Shown here: piece by piece, positions 10,945 to 22,285 of the stretch
How positions within the stretch are numbered: position 1 is the first letter of the stretch
Layout: the number at the start of each line of letters is the position of its first letter
From: Candidatus Eisenbacteria bacterium
GTDB taxonomy: Bacteria > Eisenbacteria > RBG-16-71-46 > JAFGJU01
Assembly (NCBI GenBank): GCA_026388185.1
Contig: JAPLKG010000008.1
Location: forward strand, 461,149-525,148
Length of the DNA: 64,000 nucleotides
Direction: 5' to 3'
Translations under genes and position numbers: made by a program
Notes under the pieces: generated by a model
Databases searched by the model: none
Told to the model about the DNA's origin: nothing
The model's input: the letters and a program-made list of their open reading frames with translations, nothing else

Positions 10945-12081
10945 TTGAGAGAATCCAAGATCCTAATCGTGGCGGGAGACGTCTCGGGAGATCTTCATGC
11001 CTCGCGTCTGATTCAAGCGCTGAGGAAAGCGGCGCCGAACGTCCGGGTCTTCGCGGCGGGCGGCCCGATGATGCGTGCCGCGGGCGCCAACATGGTGGCG
11101 TCCCTCGAAGGGCTCAGTGTCATGGGGTTCACTGAAGTCCTCTCGAAATTGCCCGCCTTCTACAGCCTGATGCAACAGTTGAAGCGATTTATGCAACACG
11201 AGCAACCTCAGTTGGTTATAGCGATTGATTTTCCGGGTTTCAATCTCAGGCTCTGCAAAGAAGCGAAGAAGTTGGGGATTTCTGTGTTGTACTACATCGC
11301 ACCGCAGATATGGGCCTGGGGCAAGAACAGGATCAATCTGATGGCCAAGGTCGTGGACAAGGTGGCCGTCGTGTTTCCCTTTGAGTTGGACATCTACAGG
11401 AAACGCGGGCTTGACGCTTCGTTCGTGGGGCATCCGCTCTTGGAAGCGGTTTCGGTCGGAGGAGACAAGGGGGTCGTGAGACGGAGGTTGGGTCTCCCGA
11501 CCGGCTTGCCGCTGGTGGCGCTTCTACCGGGGAGCAGGATTCATGAAGTGCGGCGGCTTCTGCCGCGGATGCTTGAGTCGGCGGATCTTCTGGCACAGAG
11601 AACAAGAATCACACTGGCAGTAGGCGCGGCGAGTAGCGTTCCGGGAAGCGAGTTCGAAAGGATGACGAGAGGGTTCCGGCTGCCTGTGCGCGTTCTGCGG
11701 GGAGTCACTTCAGAGCTTCTTTACGTCTCTGACGTTGCGGTCGTTGCCTCCGGTTCGGCCACCCTGGAGGCCGCCATCGTCGGAACTCCGATGGTGATTC
11801 TGTATGGTGTTTCTCCGGTGTCGTGGTTCATCGCGCGGAAGCTAGTGGCGCTTGACTACGTGGGCATGGTAAACATTGTTGCGGGCCGGAAGATTGTTTC
11901 TGAATATCTCCAGAACGAGATCGAGCCGGGAAAAATCTCGACTGAGCTTCACGAGCTAATCTTCAACGAGCGGAAACGCTCTGACTTGATCGCTCGACTT
12001 GCGTCGGTCAGAGACTCACTGGGGGGTTCTGGCGCCTCTGAAAAGGTGGCAGCGATCGCCCTCGGCATGTTGCCCGGATAG
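10945..12081 (+). CDS. lpxB: Lipid A disaccharide synthase LpxB
   Basis: LpxB is a family-19 glycosyltransferase that joins UDP-diacylglucosamine and lipid X into the lipid A disaccharide at the inner membrane. It has the N-terminal AGDVSGDLHASRL motif, the central PQIWAWGKNRI segment, the LLPGSRIHEVRRLLP loop and a C-terminal ASGSATLEAAIVGTPMV nucleotide site. At 378 residues it has family length. The start is TTG, 8 bases after the oxidoreductase stop, with AGGAG at 10929-10933. No LpxH or LpxI, which would supply lipid X, is visible here. Confidence 0.93.
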   Translation: MRESKILIVAGDVSGDLHASRLIQALRKAAPNVRVFAAGGPMMRAAGANMVASLEGLSVMGFTEVLSKLPAFYSLMQQLKRFMQHEQPQLVIAIDFPGFNLRLCKEAKKLGISVLYYIAPQIWAWGKNRINLMAKVVDKVAVVFPFELDIYRKRGLDASFVGHPLLEAVSVGGDKGVVRRRLGLPTGLPLVALLPGSRIHEVRRLLPRMLESADLLAQRTRITLAVGAASSVPGSEFERMTRGFRLPVRVLRGVTSELLYVSDVAVVASGSATLEAAIVGTPMVILYGVSPVSWFIARKLVALDYVGMVNIVAGRKIVSEYLQNEIEPGKISTELHELIFNERKRSDLIARLASVRDSLGGSGASEKVAAIALGMLPG

Positions 12082-12154: not shown

Positions 12155-12865
12155 GTGGGAAAGCTCTCCTTCATAGACCGGTTCGCAGCCACGTTGGTAG
12201 GTGCGGTTGGGTACTTGATCATAGCGCTGGTATGGCGCACGTTGCGAATCGAGCAAATTGATACCGGCGACATCGAGCGATGCCCTGGAGAGACGAAGAG
12301 ACGGATATTTGTGTTCTGGCACGGAGAGCTTCTGACCCTGGCATACGCTCACAGGAACGCGGGAATATGTGTCCTGGTGAGCCGGCACAGAGACGGCGAA
12401 TCCATTGCGAAGGCTCTCCAGCGGCTTGGATTTCGTGTGGTTCGAGGCTCCTCCACCGGTGGGGGTCTCGAAGGGCTTTTCGAGATGTGTACGAGTGTGA
12501 GGGAGGGGCGGGATCTTGCCATCGCGCCTGACGGACCCAGGGGGCCCAGGCACATGGTCCAGCCCGGGGTTCTCTACCTTGCACAGCGCGCGGGGGTCGT
12601 CGTCGTTCCTACGGCCTGTGCGACAGCGCGTCGGATAGTGCTAAATACTTGGGACAGATTCGAGATCCCTCTGCCGTTCTCCAGAGTGGTCGTTGCTCAC
12701 GGCCGACCTCTGGAGGTTCCTCGCGACCTGGGCGTTTCGGCCACGGAGGAGCACACGCGACGGTTGGAGGAAGCTCTTGCGAAAGTGGGTGAGGAAGCCC
12801 GGACCCGCGTGCTGTCAACGGGGCGAGGAAGAGTCTCGAGGTCCCGAGCAAAGAGGCCGAGTTGA
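12155..12865 (+). CDS. DUF374-family lysophospholipid acyltransferase-like protein
   Basis: The 236-residue protein belongs to the DUF374 branch of acyltransferases, often found in LPS clusters. An N-terminal hydrophobic helix (residues 10-28) anchors it. FVFWHGELL supplies the conserved histidine, followed by SRHRDGE, then APDGPRGPRHMVQPG and a C-terminal AHGRPLEVP motif. The likely role is acyl transfer to a lipid A or Kdo-lipid intermediate, inferred from its place between lpxB and waaA. The start is GTG. The TGA overlaps the TTG of waaA. Confidence 0.85.
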   Translation: MGKLSFIDRFAATLVGAVGYLIIALVWRTLRIEQIDTGDIERCPGETKRRIFVFWHGELLTLAYAHRNAGICVLVSRHRDGESIAKALQRLGFRVVRGSSTGGGLEGLFEMCTSVREGRDLAIAPDGPRGPRHMVQPGVLYLAQRAGVVVVPTACATARRIVLNTWDRFEIPLPFSRVVVAHGRPLEVPRDLGVSATEEHTRRLEEALAKVGEEARTRVLSTGRGRVSRSRAKRPS

Positions 12866-14190
12866 AGTTGCCCAGAATTCCCCTCGTCATACGGCTCTAT
12901 GGCTTGGCGGTGAGTCTTATGTTTGTGATTGGCTCGCCCGTCTGGCTTGCCGGGCTGATCGCACGCCCGGAACGTTGGCGAAACAGGATAGGGTTTCTGC
13001 CCGGCGTCCCTGCGAGGGATTCTCGTGTCAGAGCCAGAGTGTGGGTTCATGCTTCTTCCGTGGGAGAAGTCAAGGCCGCGACCAGACTCGTCAGAGAGAT
13101 GTCGAGTAGACTGGGTGTGGAGGTGGTCTTTTCCACAATGACTGCCGCGGGGCTTTCCGTCGCGAAGGCGGAGTTGTCTGAGCCGGTCTGTTTCTTTTAC
13201 GTTCCTATCGACGTCCCGTTCATTCAGCGAAGAGCGGGCAGGCGGATCAAGGCCGACGTTCTGCTCCTGGTTGAGACCGAGCTCTGGCCCTCTCTCATTC
13301 TCGAGGCCAAGGCCAGAGGGACAAGAGTTGCCGTGGTGAACGGAAGGATCAGCGCAAGGGGATTCGATAGATACAAGAGGTTCGGGTGGCTTTTTGCGCC
13401 GACCTTGCGCCTTCTTGACGCAGTGGTCGCGCAAAGCGAGGTGCATGCCGGGCGCTACGAGGAACTCGGAGTGCCCGCCGAGAGAGTGATGATCGGTGGC
13501 AACACAAAACAGGATTTGCAGATTGCTCTCGCCGAAGGAATCGGTCTCAGGGAGAGAGTCGGCTGGTCCTCATCCGACGTCGTCCTGGCGGCGGGGAGCA
13601 CGAGGCCTGAAGAGGAGAAGATAATCTGCGAGGGTTTCGTTCGTGCAAGAGCTTCTTCCCGGGCGTTGAGACTTGTGCTGGCTCCCAGGCACCTGAGACG
13701 CGCGGCGGGCGTGGTAAAGATCGTCTCCTCATTCAATCTTAGGGCAGCGAGGTGGAGTGAGCTCAATGCCGGGGCTCTGTCCGGCGCAATACTGGGCGGC
13801 GGTCCGGTTCAGTCTGCGCAGGTCGATGTCTTGGTGTTGGACACGATAGGGGAACTGGTGGCCGCGTATCAGGAGTCGGACGTTGCCTTCATCGGCGGTA
13901 CGCTGTCCGGGCACGGCGGGCACAACGTGCTGGAGCCTGCCGCGGCAGGGTTGCCCATAATTGCGGGACCGTCGAGAGAGAATATTCATGACGATTGTGA
14001 TGCTCTTGCGAGAAGGGGAGCCCTTCTGAGCGTCGACTGTGCGCGTGACGTTTCAGAGACGCTCACGGTGCTTGCAGCCTCGCGAGACGAAAGACTGCGG
14101 CGCGGGAAGGAAGCCCTGGCTTTTTACGATTCGAGACCTGTGGCCTCGCTCCTCACTTTGGAGTATCTGCGAAAGGCGTGCCTGCTGTGA
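12862..14190 (+). CDS. waaA: Kdo transferase WaaA (KdtA)
   Basis: WaaA transfers Kdo from CMP-Kdo to lipid IVA at the inner membrane. An N-terminal membrane helix is followed by HASSVGEVKAATRL, a family-30 glycosyltransferase hallmark. VVAQSEVHAGRY, GGNTKQD and the nucleotide-binding SGHGGHNVLEPAA come later. At 442 residues it is close to the usual 420-430. It begins at a TTG that overlaps the previous stop, so translation is probably coupled. No Kdo synthesis genes (kdsA, kdsB, kdsD) are visible. Confidence 0.92.
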   Translation: MKLPRIPLVIRLYGLAVSLMFVIGSPVWLAGLIARPERWRNRIGFLPGVPARDSRVRARVWVHASSVGEVKAATRLVREMSSRLGVEVVFSTMTAAGLSVAKAELSEPVCFFYVPIDVPFIQRRAGRRIKADVLLLVETELWPSLILEAKARGTRVAVVNGRISARGFDRYKRFGWLFAPTLRLLDAVVAQSEVHAGRYEELGVPAERVMIGGNTKQDLQIALAEGIGLRERVGWSSSDVVLAAGSTRPEEEKIICEGFVRARASSRALRLVLAPRHLRRAAGVVKIVSSFNLRAARWSELNAGALSGAILGGGPVQSAQVDVLVLDTIGELVAAYQESDVAFIGGTLSGHGGHNVLEPAAAGLPIIAGPSRENIHDDCDALARRGALLSVDCARDVSETLTVLAASRDERLRRGKEALAFYDSRPVASLLTLEYLRKACLL

Positions 14191-14210
14191 GAGATTCTCT
14201 GCAAGGGATT

Positions 14211-15290
14211 ATGCAATACATTGAACAACACGAGCGTCACGCCTGGTTGAGGGTTGCGGCTTCTCCACTTCTTGCGCTTTCGTGGGTGTACGAAGTCGGA
14301 CTCAATCTGAGATGGATTCTCCAGGAATTGAGGAACAAGGCGAGCGTCCCTTGCCCGGTCGTGTCTGTAGGAAACATGACAGTGGGGGGTACCGGCAAGA
14401 CCCCCACCGTGGCCTGGGTCGCCGAGTTCTTGGTTCGAAACGGAATCAGGATCGCGATCGTGAGTCACGGATATGGCGGAGGCGGACGCTTCGTCTTGTT
14501 GAGGGATCAGGTGCCGCGCGCCGACATCGCCGCCATGGCGGGAGACGAAGCGGTGCTGCTCTCGCACACGTTGCCGGGCGTGCCGGTTGCTTCCGGGAGA
14601 AGAAAAGCGAGGGTGCTCTTGAGAGCTTGGAGACGACTCAGGCCGGACGTGATTGTTATTGACGACGGCTTTCAGTCCATCTCGATCCGAAGAGATCTCG
14701 ACGTGGTTGCCGTGGACGCCACAAACCCCTGGGGCAGCGGACATCTTCTTCCCAGGGGGCGCCTCAGGGAGAAGAGGGAGAATCTTTCGCGAGCCGACGT
14801 GGTCGTTCTGACCCGGTGTAATCAGTGCGGTGATTTCTCGCTGCTTGTTGAAGAGATCAAGACACTGACCGATGCTCCGATCGTCAAGGCCGATCACGTC
14901 GTCAGGGGAGTGCGGAAGCTTGATACCGATGCGCAGGCCGAACCCAAGGTCTTGGCCGGCGCCGGCGTTTACGCTTTCTCGGCCATTGCCAATCCCGCTT
15001 CCTTTGAGCGAACACTGCAGGACGCAGGCGCTTCCCTGGTAGGCGTCAGGAGATTTTCCGATCACCATTTCTTCTCCGCAGAGGACTTGGCGGAAGTTGA
15101 GAGCGAGGCAGTGTTCGCGAGGGCCAAGTTCCTGGTCACCACTGAGAAGGACGCGATGAGGCTGCCTTCAGCGTGGACTCTGAATCGCGGCATCCCACTC
15201 CTGGCGGTGGGGATTTCGCTCAGCGTCACCGAAGGAAGGGAGATTCTCGAGAGTCTCCTCCTCGGCTTGTTCTCAAGGCGCGCCAATTGA
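14211..15290 (+). CDS. lpxK: Tetraacyldisaccharide 4'-kinase LpxK
   Basis: LpxK phosphorylates the 4' position of the lipid A disaccharide. It has the P-loop GNMTVGGTGKTPT, then SHGYGGGGRF, MAGDEAVLL, DDGFQ and a C-terminal TTEKDAMRL motif, all typical. I chose the ATG at 14211. It has AAGGGA upstream and leaves about 18 residues before the hydrophobic helix that starts the family alignment. In-frame GTG codons at 14178 and 14187 (the latter overlapping the waaA stop) are alternatives. This gene closes the run of LPS genes before a new promoter. Confidence 0.92.
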   Translation: MQYIEQHERHAWLRVAASPLLALSWVYEVGLNLRWILQELRNKASVPCPVVSVGNMTVGGTGKTPTVAWVAEFLVRNGIRIAIVSHGYGGGGRFVLLRDQVPRADIAAMAGDEAVLLSHTLPGVPVASGRRKARVLLRAWRRLRPDVIVIDDGFQSISIRRDLDVVAVDATNPWGSGHLLPRGRLREKRENLSRADVVVLTRCNQCGDFSLLVEEIKTLTDAPIVKADHVVRGVRKLDTDAQAEPKVLAGAGVYAFSAIANPASFERTLQDAGASLVGVRRFSDHHFFSAEDLAEVESEAVFARAKFLVTTEKDAMRLPSAWTLNRGIPLLAVGISLSVTEGREILESLLLGLFSRRAN

Positions 15291-17528: not shown

Positions 17529-19409
17529 ATGGGGGTTTTCTTCAGACTTCTTGGGTACGTAAGACCGTATTGGCGCAAGCTCACTTTGGCGCTTGCATGC
17601 ATGGTGATGTTCGCCTTCTTCAGCGGGTTCTCGATAGGCATGATCTCACCCTTCATTGAGGTTCTCTTCGAGCAGCCCACAGAACAGCAGAGGGCGGAAC
17701 TGAGAGAGAACGTCTCTGTGAATAGTGTGACCCCGGGCGACCTCGCGCAGATCAAAGAATACATCAAGGTCCAGACTCAAAAATACCTCCTGTCGTCCAG
17801 ACCTCTGGTCTCTCTGGAGCGAATTTGTTTCGTGATTCTGATAGTGATGCTTCTCAAGAATATCTTCAACTACTGCCAGACCTTTCTCATCGCCGCCGTT
17901 GAACAGAGGGTCATAAAGGATCTGAGGGACCGTCTCTATTCTCATCTCTACAGGCTGCCGCTGTCCTTCTTTCATTCACAGATGACCGGGCGCCTCATAT
18001 CGAGGATCACCAATGACGTGAGCATGATAAGGGGAACCATTACCGGCGTTTTTAGCAACGTCGTGCGCGACTTGCTGCTTCTCTGTGTCTGCATATTCTG
18101 GGTTTTTTGGGCGAGCTGGAGATTGGCCTTCGTGTCGCTCATAGTGCTTCCCCCGAGCATGTTCCTCATCGTGACAATCAGTAAGAAGCTGAGAAGAGAC
18201 AGCACTCTCATTCAGGAGAGGATGGGCGACATCACTTCCGTGCTCCAGGAGACGATATCGGGAATGAGGGTCGTAAAATCGTTCAGAATGGAGGAGTTCG
18301 AGAAGAACAAGTTCTTTCGTTTCACGAGGGCCCATCTTGCTTCTTTTCTGAGACTGACGAGGATTGGCGCCCTGGCATCGCCTCTGTCCGAATATCTTGG
18401 CGTGATGGTAGGAACGGTGGTGCTCTGGTTTGGCGGCAGGCAGATTCTTCAAGAGCGCACGCTCGAGCCCAAGGCGTTCTGCGTGTTTCTGTTTGCCATG
18501 TTTTCCATCATGGCGCCGCTAAAGAGCCTCAGTCAGGTCAACACGAAAATCCAGGAAGGGCTGGCGGCGGCAAAGAGGGTGTTCAAGCTTCTGGATACCG
18601 AGCCTCCGATAGCGGACAGACCGAACGCCACGAGGATTCAGTGGCTCCGAGATTCGATCGAGTTTCGAAACGTGAGCTTCAGTTACGACGACGTGAAGGA
18701 CGTTCTTGAGGACATCAGTTTCAGCGTCAAGGTCGGCCAGGTGCTCGCGATAGTGGGACCCAGCGGGGCAGGGAAGTCCACCCTGGTCGATCTGCTGCCG
18801 AAATTCTACATCCCGACGTCGGGTGTCATCTGCTTTGATGGAAGAGACGCGCTTGACATTACCACGGATTCCTTGAGGGCACTCATGGGAATCGTGACCC
18901 AGGAAACGATTCTGTTCAACGACACGGTCAGGAACAACATCGCGTACGGTCTGCAAGACACCCCTGAAGAGGACGTCGTGCGGGCGGCGAAGACCGCCAA
19001 CGCGCATCAGTTCATAGAGACGATGCCTTCAGGTTATCAGACCGTGATCGGCGACAGGGGCGTGCGCCTCTCCGGAGGGCAGAGGCAGAGGATCGCGATC
19101 GCAAGGGCAATCCTCAAGAATCCTCCCGTGCTGATTTTCGATGAGGCCACTTCTGCCCTCGACACTGAATCCGAGCTTCTCGTCCAACAGGCCATAGAGA
19201 GGCTCATGGAGAACAGAACCACCTTCGTCATCGCTCATAGACTTTCGACGATTCAGCGTGCGGATTTGATAGTAGTGCTGGACAGGGGCAGGATAGTCCA
19301 GCGGGGCACTCATGAGAGCTTGCTCTCGGAGGAAGGGTTGTACAAGAGGCTTTACGAGCTTCAGTTCGCATTCTCGGATTCCGTGCGAACGACCGAGGCC
19401 GTGCAGTGA
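17529..19409 (+). CDS. msbA: MsbA-like ABC exporter (half transporter)
   Basis: This is a homodimeric-type ABC exporter with six membrane helices (about residues 15-310) and a C-terminal ATPase (about 375-610). The ATPase shows Walker A GPSGAGKST, Q-loop VTQETILFND, signature LSGGQRQR, Walker B VLIFDEATSALD and H-loop IAHRLST. Given the LPS genes on both sides, flipping of lipid A-core across the inner membrane is the likely job. Sequence alone cannot exclude another lipid or drug substrate. An insert after the first helix (residues 50-85) is hydrophilic and probably periplasmic. At 626 residues it is longer than E. coli MsbA (582). Confidence 0.85.
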   Translation: MGVFFRLLGYVRPYWRKLTLALACMVMFAFFSGFSIGMISPFIEVLFEQPTEQQRAELRENVSVNSVTPGDLAQIKEYIKVQTQKYLLSSRPLVSLERICFVILIVMLLKNIFNYCQTFLIAAVEQRVIKDLRDRLYSHLYRLPLSFFHSQMTGRLISRITNDVSMIRGTITGVFSNVVRDLLLLCVCIFWVFWASWRLAFVSLIVLPPSMFLIVTISKKLRRDSTLIQERMGDITSVLQETISGMRVVKSFRMEEFEKNKFFRFTRAHLASFLRLTRIGALASPLSEYLGVMVGTVVLWFGGRQILQERTLEPKAFCVFLFAMFSIMAPLKSLSQVNTKIQEGLAAAKRVFKLLDTEPPIADRPNATRIQWLRDSIEFRNVSFSYDDVKDVLEDISFSVKVGQVLAIVGPSGAGKSTLVDLLPKFYIPTSGVICFDGRDALDITTDSLRALMGIVTQETILFNDTVRNNIAYGLQDTPEEDVVRAAKTANAHQFIETMPSGYQTVIGDRGVRLSGGQRQRIAIARAILKNPPVLIFDEATSALDTESELLVQQAIERLMENRTTFVIAHRLSTIQRADLIVVLDRGRIVQRGTHESLLSEEGLYKRLYELQFAFSDSVRTTEAVQ

Positions 19410-19472
19410 CTCTTGCCGGTCTCGAGCGAAAGGTTCCCCTTGACCTTACACACGTCCCGGCGTTCCTGTGAA

Positions 19473-21680
19473 ATGGGTGCCTCTCCCAGGATACTCGTGA
19501 TCAGGCTTAGCTCGCTCGGAGACGTTGTTCTTGCCACCTCTGTGCCCGCTGTTCTCAAGAGCGAGTTTCCCGGCGCCCGCGTCGCCTTTCTCACAAAAGA
19601 CGCCTTCGCTGAAGTCCTGGGCAACAACCCGAACATAGACCAGACGATTCCACTCACGGCGAGTGAGAGTTCTTTCTCCGGCCTTTTCAGAATCGCACGG
19701 AGGCTCAAGGTCGAACGTTTTGACCTTGTGATTGATCTGCAGGCGAACCCGCGCACTATTCTCCTTTGCGCCCTCATCTCGCCCCGAAGATGCGTGAGAG
19801 CGGACAGAGATTCACTCGTCAGGCACGGCGCCGTCAGGTTCAAGAGTCTATTACCCCGCCGCGGCAGGCACGTCGTTCAACGTTATCTTGCCCCCGTCCA
19901 GAAATTGCTCGGCCCGGTGCCCGCACTCAAGCCGCAGATGTTCGTCGCGGAGGGCGAGAAGGAATCCGCAAGGCAGTTTCTCCGCTGCGTCCAGGGCCCG
20001 TCGGCGCGCTCGGCTGACGGCCCGACTGTGGCCATTTGCCCCGGGGCGAGGTGGAAGACGAAGGTTTGGGGTGCCGGCAGCATGAGTCTTCTTGCCAAGG
20101 CACTCGTAAGAGCCGGCTACGGAGTACTGGTCCTCGGCGGCGAGGCTGACGAGGCAATTCTCCGGGAGATGAAGTCGCTCTGCGAGAACGAGAAGGCCGT
20201 GAGATTCCACACCGGCGGCCTCAGAACCATTGCGGCGTTGATGTCGCAGTGCGATTGCGTCGTCTCGAACGATTCCGGCCTCATGCACATGGCCTACGCG
20301 GTGGGGACGCCGGTCGTTGCGATCTTTGGTTCCACAACTCCCGAGTTCGGGTTCTACCCGCCTGATTCCAGGTCTACGGTCATATCGAAGTCTTTTCAAT
20401 GTAAGCCGTGCGACGTCCACGGCAAGAACGAATGTCCGAAGGGCGATTTTAGATGCATGAACTCGGTGGAAGTTTCGGAAGTCATGGACGTTGTCGACGC
20501 GACTCTCAAACGAGCGAGTGGACGTGGCGAGCGGACTCCACGGGGAGTCGTCTCTCGAGAGGCGCGTTCTCTCAGGATCGAGTCGCCTCGTTTTGTCCTC
20601 GGCGAAGGCGAACCCGCACCCTCCGGCAATGCCTGGGGCGGCGGCGGCGTGCCCTCCCAGGGTTCCATCGTTGTGCGGGTGCCGAACTGGGTGGGCGACG
20701 TCGTGATGGCGTATCCGGCGCTCGGTGCACTGAGAAATTGCACTCGAGGGCTGAGAATAGTGGCAGTTGCGCACGAGCGTGTCGCGAGCCTTCTCGAGAG
20801 CGCGCCGTTCATGGACGAGGTCCTTGTGATCAAGGGCAAAGGCGTGGTTGGTCCGGTCAGGACCGCCCGAGCACTCAGGGCCGGCAGGTTCGCTCTCGGA
20901 ATCGTGATGCCGGATTCGTTTTCTTCGGCTTTTCTTTTCCGGCTCGGCGGAGTGAAGAGGATTGTCGGATTCAGGGGCGAGATGAGGAACGCGTTTCTGC
21001 GCACCGGCGTGTCAAAGAAGAACTGGTGTCACCTCTCCGAGCAATACGCTCAGCTTCTCCCCAGAGGGTGCGAGATCGACCGCAAGGTAGGTTTGCAGGT
21101 GAGTCACGACGGCGTGAGTCGCGCCAGGAAAATCCTCGAGGAGGCAGGAGTCTGGGAGAACACGAAACTGGCGATCGTTGCCCCCGGCGCAAGCTACGGC
21201 GAGACGAAAAGGTGGCCGGAGGAGAGATACACCGATCTCGTCAGGCTGCTCGTGGAGAAGGCGCAGTTTCAGGTGATTTTGGTCGGAAACCTTGCGGACG
21301 AGGAGCTCTGCGCCAGGATCGCCCGGAAAGCCGGTCGTTCTACAGTGAACCTTTCCGGCCAAACTACTCTGCCTGACTTGGCGGCCATTGCTTCGATTGC
21401 ATCCGTGTTCGTAGGGAACGACTCCGGTGCCGCTCACGTCGCGGCCGCCTCCGGCTGTCCCGTGGTGGTCGTCGTCGGCTCGTCGGATCCCTCGTGGACG
21501 GCTCCCAACGGTGATATTGTCGACGTCATCTACGAGAGAGTGTCGTGTTCGCCTTGCTTTCTCAAAAAGTGCCCTTACGACTTGCGGTGTCTCTCACAAA
21601 TCGATGCAGAGAGAGTATATCGTGCGGCGATCGGCGCCAGTAGAGAGAGGCGCTCAGACAGATATGGAGGAAACAGTTGA
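19473..21680 (+). CDS. Fused double heptosyltransferase (two GT9 domains)
   Basis: Two complete family-9 glycosyltransferases lie in one chain. Domain 1 (residues 1-350) begins RILVIRLSSLGDVVLATS and carries VVSNDSGLMHMAYAVGTPVVAIFG. Domain 2 (residues 406-730) begins IVVRVPNWVGDVVMAYPALG and carries VFVGNDSGAAHVAAASGCPVVV. Each domain has its own Cys-rich segment (CKPCDVHGKNECP; CSPCFLKKCPYDLRC). A low-complexity linker of about 55 residues joins them. They probably add consecutive inner-core heptoses (WaaC- and WaaF-like). The ATG at 19473 leaves a normal start before the first GT9 strand. A TTG at 19413 would add 20 residues. Confidence 0.88.
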   Translation: MGASPRILVIRLSSLGDVVLATSVPAVLKSEFPGARVAFLTKDAFAEVLGNNPNIDQTIPLTASESSFSGLFRIARRLKVERFDLVIDLQANPRTILLCALISPRRCVRADRDSLVRHGAVRFKSLLPRRGRHVVQRYLAPVQKLLGPVPALKPQMFVAEGEKESARQFLRCVQGPSARSADGPTVAICPGARWKTKVWGAGSMSLLAKALVRAGYGVLVLGGEADEAILREMKSLCENEKAVRFHTGGLRTIAALMSQCDCVVSNDSGLMHMAYAVGTPVVAIFGSTTPEFGFYPPDSRSTVISKSFQCKPCDVHGKNECPKGDFRCMNSVEVSEVMDVVDATLKRASGRGERTPRGVVSREARSLRIESPRFVLGEGEPAPSGNAWGGGGVPSQGSIVVRVPNWVGDVVMAYPALGALRNCTRGLRIVAVAHERVASLLESAPFMDEVLVIKGKGVVGPVRTARALRAGRFALGIVMPDSFSSAFLFRLGGVKRIVGFRGEMRNAFLRTGVSKKNWCHLSEQYAQLLPRGCEIDRKVGLQVSHDGVSRARKILEEAGVWENTKLAIVAPGASYGETKRWPEERYTDLVRLLVEKAQFQVILVGNLADEELCARIARKAGRSTVNLSGQTTLPDLAAIASIASVFVGNDSGAAHVAAASGCPVVVVVGSSDPSWTAPNGDIVDVIYERVSCSPCFLKKCPYDLRCLSQIDAERVYRAAIGASRERRSDRYGGNS

Positions 21681-22285
21681 ACGCAGGAAGATCGTCGAGT
21701 AAGGAGCAATCGATTGAGTCGCGGTGGGCGGTCTTCGTGGATAGAGACGGGACGATAATAGACGAGACCGGTTATCTCTCCGATCCTGACGGGGTCAGAA
21801 TTTTGCCGCATGCCTCCTCGGGCCTCAGAAAACTCAACCGGATTGGCATTCCGGTCATAGTTGTTTCAAATCAGTCCGGAATCGCGAGACGAATGTTCAC
21901 GGCCGAAGACGTGGAGAGGGTAAACCAGAGGATGCGGGACTTGCTTGCGGCCGATGGCGCCCGCGTGGATGCAATCTATTTTTGTCCCCATCATCCCGAC
22001 TACGACGTCGAATGCGATTGCAGAAAGCCTCGGCCCGGACTCCTTGTTGCGGCATCCAAGGAACGGGGAATATCGCTCAAGGAGAGTTTCATGGTCGGCG
22101 ACAAGCTCATAGATATGCAGGCTGGAAGGGCGGCAGAGACGTCGACCGTTTTTGTGCGCACGGGTGATGGGCAAAAGGAGTTGCAGGCCGCCGGGGCCGA
22201 GATATCAGCGGTCGCGGACGCGGTTTGCGAGGATCTTTCCGAGGCCGTCGAATGGATACTGGAGCAGAGAAACCTCCGTCGCTAG
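21677..22285 (+). CDS. gmhB: D-glycero-D-manno-heptose 1,7-bisphosphate phosphatase GmhB
   Basis: GmhB is a HAD-superfamily phosphatase supplying ADP-heptose for the LPS core. It has the nucleophile motif VFVDRDGTIID, VVSNQSGIARRMF, the zinc-loop cysteines and histidine in CPHHPDYDVECDCRKP, and MVGDKLIDMQAGR. The TTG start overlaps the stop of the heptosyltransferase gene and has a strong GGAGGAA site at about 21665-21671, which decides this start. Adjacent heptosyltransferases fit the pathway; hldE and gmhA are not in the window. Confidence 0.9.
   Translation: MNAGRSSSKEQSIESRWAVFVDRDGTIIDETGYLSDPDGVRILPHASSGLRKLNRIGIPVIVVSNQSGIARRMFTAEDVERVNQRMRDLLAADGARVDAIYFCPHHPDYDVECDCRKPRPGLLVAASKERGISLKESFMVGDKLIDMQAGRAAETSTVFVRTGDGQKELQAAGAEISAVADAVCEDLSEAVEWILEQRNLRR

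Follow-up and report, generated by a model that had tools for sequence, protein, structure and literature searches.

Can two heptosyltransferases work within one polypeptide, and would such a chain perform two consecutive steps of lipopolysaccharide (LPS) core assembly? This question is raised by a gene in a 64,000-nucleotide stretch of DNA from a Candidatus Eisenbacteria bacterium (contig JAPLKG010000008.1), the whole of which is referred to here as the window. The gene encodes two GT9 domains in one frame, each with its own donor loop and cysteine cluster.

A single gene for two GT9 domains

The gene is a single frame on the forward strand, running from an ATG at 19473 to a stop at 21680 and encoding 735 amino acids; the boundaries drawn in the first-pass annotation of this DNA were right. 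An alternative TTG start at 19413 is possible and would lengthen the product to 755 amino acids. The G+C content of the gene is ordinary for the window. The Pfam GT9 model PF01075 matches the protein twice. Taken on their own, the N-terminal stretch scores 127.0 bits (E = 7.8e-37) and the C-terminal stretch 141.3 bits (E = 3.5e-41) against this model, the cut-off being 22. Both domains are intact, and the early description of two GT9 domains in one polypeptide is confirmed: the chain contains two full GT9 halves. The separate enzymes of model bacteria, to which the annotation had also referred, are exemplified by Escherichia coli, in which waaC and waaF are distinct, adjoining genes. Recent duplication of one gene was rejected as the source of the two halves, as they share 27% identity and fall into different clades of the tree described below.

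The fusion lies within a lipid A and core block (Table 1), in the order lpxB, a DUF374 gene, a Kdo transferase gene, lpxK, nadB, a Minf_1886 gene, an msbA-like gene, the fusion, a gmhB-like gene and a UbiA gene. The name nadB was read from the translation and not from a model match. The same neighbours, namely lpxB, kdtA, lpxK, nadB, the Minf_1886 gene, msbA, gmhB and the UbiA gene, surround the fusion in all three family genomes, i.e., the genome studied here, G001 and G002; the DUF374 gene found no match at the G002 locus. Regarding the supply of ADP-heptose, the hldE kinase domain scores above its cut-off in the own genome, and the adenylyltransferase domain does so in all three family genomes. 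A gmhA-like gene reaches 186-192 bits in each of the three, below its cut-off of 209.45.

A second heptose cluster is located at G000:C11:374506-378051 (L118, L125). It contains kinase and adenylyltransferase domains whose scores stay under the curated cut-offs. Behind them come two neighbouring GT9 genes with a slight overlap, both matching the HepIII model best. Adenylyltransferase-like and GT9 matches are also present in G001:C214 and in G002:C1 near 1377000-1380000.

Table 1. Features of the fusion gene and its neighbourhood, in positions of the window.
Feature	Coordinates	Strand	Evidence
lpxB, lipid A disaccharide synthase	10945..12081	+	TIGR00215, 304.7 bits (cut-off 190.25)
kdtA/waaA-type Kdo transferase	12862..14190	+	PF04413, 177.1 bits; below NCBIfam equivalog cut-offs
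lpxK	14178..15290	+	TIGR00682, 188.2 bits (cut-off 91.95)
msbA-like lipid A exporter	17529..19409	+	TIGR02203, 575.7 bits, just below cut-off of 602
Fused double GT9 heptosyltransferase, 735 aa	19473..21680	+	Pfam; same fusion in family genomes G001 and G002
N half, residues 1-349: GT9 of msbA-adjacent clade, putative heptosyltransferase I role	19473..20519	+	Pfam, curated models, tree, fold
D17, equivalent of WaaC D13 (putative catalytic)	19521..19523	+	Alignment
K197, equivalent of WaaC K192	20061..20063	+	Alignment
N-half donor loop DSGLMH, D267-H272	20271..20288	+	Alignment; consensus D(T/S)(G/A)XXH
N-half four-Cys cluster C310-C313-C321-C328	20400..20456	+	Invariant in 22 aligned rows and three fusions
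Linker, residues 350-396	20520..20660	+	Low identity; partly low pLDDT
C half, residues 397-720: WaaF-type (heptosyltransferase II) GT9 by sequence	20661..21632	+	TIGR02195; tree
D409, equivalent of WaaC D13	20697..20699	+	Alignment
K579, equivalent of WaaC K192	21207..21209	+	Alignment
C-half donor loop DSGAAH, D650-H655	21420..21437	+	Alignment
C-half four-Cys cluster C692-C695-C700-C706	21546..21590	+	Invariant in 25 aligned rows
gmhB-like heptose bisphosphate phosphatase, overlaps fusion stop	21677..22285	+	NF006506, 174.9 bits, just below cut-off of 178

Proposed assignment of the two halves to core steps

The C half scores 174.7 bits against TIGR02195 (heptosyltransferase II, WaaF), above the cut-off of 134.6, and a 51-row tree unites the C halves and E. 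coli WaaF in one clade of 24 (support 100/99). Judged by model and tree, the C half is of the WaaF type (heptosyltransferase II). It shares the GT9 family, the catalytic and donor residues and the clade with E. coli WaaF (RfaF, PDB 1psw). It differs in being fused and in carrying four cysteines, whereas WaaF is a separate protein without this pattern.

For the N half, the best curated model is again the heptosyltransferase II model TIGR02195, whose cut-off it passes narrowly with 137.5 bits. Its score against TIGR02193 (heptosyltransferase I, WaaC) is 104.4 bits, below the cut-off of 185.3. Neither half reaches the cut-off of 200 for TIGR04414 (TibC family), with 28.1 bits for the N half and 18.2 bits for the C half. 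In the same tree, a clade of 20 (support 100/94) unites the three N halves with class enzymes encoded by single genes and with four rows from beyond the class. Neither this clade nor that of the C halves includes E. coli WaaC, WaaQ or WaaU, whose long branches have an uncertain position. Compared with E. coli WaaC (RfaC, heptosyltransferase I; PDB 2h1h, 2gt1 and 6dfe), the N half has the same fold (2h1h: Z 27.9, 294 residues, rmsd 2.8) and the same key residues, and it presumably performs the same step. However, the two belong to different sequence clades, the N half stays below the HepI cut-off, and WaaC does not contain the four cysteines.

The gene context is informative about the N half. 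A single N-like gene directly follows msbA in all four class loci with wide flanks, and the end of msbA was matched beside the N-like gene in 10 of 26 stretches cut just outside that gene. Five GT9 matches are present in the own genome, two of them in the fusion. The other three proteins (C3:108227, C11:376190 and C11:377260) match the HepIII model best, all below its cut-off, and the tree joins them to E. coli WaaQ and WaaU with weak support (66/32). Because of the position after msbA, the WaaF-type partner and the affinity of the other GT9 proteins for the HepIII model, we infer that the N half catalyses the heptosyltransferase I step, the acceptor being deduced from gene context.

The reading that we consider probable combines these points: the fusion would consist of two active, ADP-heptose-dependent transferases for the heptosyltransferase I and II steps, would have arisen once, and would carry metal sites. 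Kdo-lipid A would receive its first heptose from the N half, and the C half would attach the second heptose to the first. Both steps would take place at the cytoplasmic face of the inner membrane, prior to export of the product by MsbA. Tethering may hold the enzymes at a one-to-one ratio and keep the intermediate that carries one heptose close to the second site. Counted against this reading are the TIGR02193 score of the N half, the place of WaaC outside the N-half clade, which is itself unsure given the long branch, and the presence of three further GT9 matches elsewhere in the genome, which could share the work.

The same observations lend some weight to another explanation, in which two active halves are again assumed, with the N half transferring a third heptose or a different sugar and HepI being encoded by another GT9 gene. 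The shortfall against the WaaC model and the preference for the HepII model would fit such a role, and the three further GT9 matches are candidates for HepI. However, these candidates lean towards the HepIII model and towards WaaQ and WaaU, and the N-like gene keeps its place after msbA in the loci described above. This explanation is considered unlikely. Under the preferred assignment to the HepI and HepII steps, the protein represents a natural one-chain form of probably two consecutive LPS core steps that are performed by separate proteins in E. coli, and it is useful for asking whether core enzymes operate as a chain. That the N half is joined to a WaaF-type partner also offers a clue to the function of its GT9 clade, which curated models place poorly.

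According to PMC3559599, the key residues of WaaC are D13, K192, E222, D261 and H266, and the signature is D(T/S)(G/A)XXH. D13 is described as the putative catalytic residue in PMC9068772. Alignment equates WaaC D13, K192, D261 and H266 with D17, K197, D267 and H272 in the N half and with D409, K579, D650 and H655 in the C half, and these four residues of both halves are invariant across the three fusions. The N alignment of 22 rows contains 20 of 31 N-like single-domain proteins and two N halves, and the C alignment of 25 rows contains 22 of 113 C-like single-domain proteins and three C halves, both taken mainly best-scoring first. D17, K197, D267 and H272 are invariant in the former. In the latter, D409, D650 and H655 are invariant, and K579 is lysine in 23 rows and arginine in two. 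WaaC E222 corresponds to D226 in the N half and D609 in the C half, at a loosely aligned place where a pairwise alignment gives E227. The WaaF residue at the E222 position is aspartate here, at odds with a table in PMC3559599.

The Asp-Ser-Gly donor loop noticed early in each domain is present at D267-H272 and D650-H655, both of the form D-S-G-x-x-H. Loss of donor-site residues from one domain had been named as an objection to the two-enzyme idea, and both domains keep them. Since both halves retain the catalytic and donor residues, two transfers by the one polypeptide are likely, and the sequence is best read as a chain with two working transferases. Fused pairs with one dead half occur in other enzyme families. 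That one half has lost its catalytic role here and now acts as a scaffold or as a partner in a dimer is nevertheless very improbable: the four key residues are present in both halves of all three fusions, and conservation is equal, each half being 0.53 and 0.52 identical to the other two fusions. The candidate of one dead half thus found no support.

An AlphaFold2 model of the N half (residues 1-362, 22 rows) has a mean pLDDT of 91.5. Its best fold matches are GT9 structures, with 3tov (Z 34.8, 320 residues, rmsd 2.5) and 1psw (Z 32.8) ahead of WaaC 2h1h, and the match to 3tov indicates a GT-B fold for the modelled half. The model of the whole protein, built from three rows, has a pLDDT of 69.1 and a pTM of 0.52, which is too weak to place the halves relative to each other, and residues 351-360 and 371-387 of the linker have pLDDT values below 50. 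The best Foldseek match of this low-confidence model is 1psw (E = 2.6e-20), a match that could be to either half. Structure prediction, which had been proposed as a check, bears out the GT9 fold for the N half and is weak for the whole protein.

Four-cysteine clusters in both halves

The first-pass annotation also described a cysteine cluster in each domain, and each half does contain four conserved cysteines after the donor loop, as in a TibC-type iron finger. They are C310, C313, C321 and C328 in the N half and C692, C695, C700 and C706 in the C half. The possibility that the clusters are special to the fusion was rejected, as the C-x2-C ... C ... C pattern is shared by 140 of 144 unique single-domain relatives. 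The 80 relative loci, partly found with peptides from the Cys motif, are a biased set; among relatives from genome searches, a set not chosen by motif, the pattern occurs in 45 of 47. One of the four relatives missing the pattern contains four cysteines with a longer gap. The own genome encodes one N-like protein that lacks the pattern (L003); it is not part of the N alignment. The invariance of the cysteines in the 22- and 25-row alignments leaves out the pattern misses. E. coli WaaC, WaaF, WaaQ and WaaU do not contain the four-Cys pattern.

TibC is an autotransporter heptosyltransferase of the GT-B type (PDB 4rap and 4rb4). According to PMC4358343, its cysteines 339, 342, 358 and 370 hold a ferric ion that is needed for assembly and activity. 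The halves share with TibC the C-x2-C start of the cluster, which appears to lie at roughly the same place in the C-lobe. TibC differs in glycosylating an autotransporter protein and in having a beta-barrel, a thumb and a wider Cys spacing, according to the same paper. Fold searches retrieve TibC, for the N half with a Z of 21.7 (271 residues, rmsd 3.2), and positions 181-290 of the N-clade profile align weakly (E 0.033) to TibC 215-324. The first cysteine follows the aligned block by 15 residues in TibC and by 19 here, and the later spacings are shorter here. Because the clusters are close to the place of the TibC iron finger, the four-Cys cluster is, by analogy, a likely candidate metal site. 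Each half probably holds one metal ion at this site, which would keep the C-lobe in shape. A literature search on iron-finger and heptosyltransferase returned two papers, on TibC and on BimA and BimC respectively, and a search on the cysteines gave nothing useful among the top-ranked results.

A more far-reaching proposal can be formulated, which we regard as doubtful in its full form. A serial enzyme would pass once-heptosylated Kdo-lipid A from the N to the C site, and two TibC-like iron fingers (1Fe-0S) would pack the halves like the back-to-back TibC dimer. The finger would then be common and so far unnoticed in core heptosyltransferases of many phyla, and missing from the E. coli enzymes. 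In any case, the shared four-Cys site is a more general lead than the fusion itself. Its presence in nearly all relatives examined suggests that common heptosyltransferases contain a metal, one that would be invisible in E. coli structures.

Reality, spread and origin of the join

Among the matches listed from a search of 59 genomes (own included), one-frame relatives of the fusion were found in G001 and G002, the other two family members examined. Both align to the window protein over its full length, with 51% and 52% identity. The join is in frame at the same place, with differing linkers, in three separate assemblies, one of which is a single contig. In G001, the fusion (L117:6074-8356) carries about 34 extra residues in its N half, inserted behind the position that corresponds to residue 236 in the window protein.

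The two halves are equally constrained among the fusions and the linker is less so, with identities of 0.39 and 0.34. Such a poorly conserved linker, modelled in part with low confidence, would accommodate one frame that yields two proteins, either by linker cleavage or by a restart at an in-frame GTG at 20649 (residue 393). No AGGAGG-like site was seen by eye before this GTG, and the separation into two proteins is judged highly improbable. An assembly or sequencing error that joined two genes, suspected at the linker from the outset, is practically ruled out because the in-frame linker recurs in three separate genomes (all three of the family) with fusions as divergent as stated above, and nothing was found in its favour.

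A profile built from the three fusions was used to search 352 genomes of six phyla, the search for other fusions having been suggested in the first-pass annotation. Among the matches listed, full-length matches were obtained in three of 47 genomes of the own phylum, which are exactly the three family members. In the five other phyla, no full-length fusion match was obtained in 132, 77, 40, 39 and 17 genomes, respectively; the searches of the 40, 39 and 17 genomes (96 in total) were run at E <= 1e-75 and gave zero matches of any kind, with no positive control. No fusions were present among 80 loci, the best 80 of 245 relatives. When 160 loci were scanned by script, each of the 10 long double-GT9 frames detected came from one of the three family genomes. 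These searches could overlook a fusion in reversed order or one that is very divergent. Among the open-licence papers listed, no titles or abstract openings name a fused or bifunctional heptosyltransferase. The join is thus a genuine, conserved and lineage-specific fusion of known enzymes, found in a small group of related bacteria only. As it unites enzymes of one known family, for what are presumably consecutive steps, in a narrow lineage, it is neat rather than startling.

The origin of the fusion was approached by comparison with 26 of 44 class genomes outside the family, namely those with both genes on one contig among the matches listed. In all 26, the hepN-like and hepC-like genes are separate, with 1.57-4.5 kb between them. 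A prolyl-tRNA synthetase gene (proS) was matched between the two genes in 17 of the 26 (16 of family f8 and one of f11). No proS match was found between the genes in the remaining nine, eight of which belong to family f4 and one to f2, where the C-like gene is on the opposite strand. Two of the intervening synthetases were scanned and scored 613 and 554.1 bits against the family I model (cut-off 437). This family I synthetase is missing from the three fusion genomes, which gave only partial matches of 27-33% identity to the family I proS of the relatives. The partly matching proS frames in the fusion family (L170, L171 and L172) encode 576-585 amino acids (28-33% identity).

These weak matches fit a loss of proS from between the two genes. 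Most likely, the fusion arose once, in the ancestor of the family, through loss of the intervening DNA between hepN and hepC. The two flanking genes would then have run together via a short, poorly conserved linker. The proS-loss step is partly a guess, because of the nine relatives in which no proS was matched between the genes.

Other fused or possibly fused frames involving heptose enzymes were observed as well. Within the same class, L011:42-1664 and L015:883-2571 (G031 and G009) encode HepII-GmhB fusions. These resemble the fusion described here in that a heptose core-pathway enzyme is fused, but they join a HepII-type transferase to a GmhB-like phosphatase and not to a second transferase. 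In the phylum of G055, many N-like GT9 stretches (e.g., G107:C113:9493-10488) lie in frames of approximately 520-590 amino acids, and an extra domain may be fused to the N-like GT9 in these bacteria.
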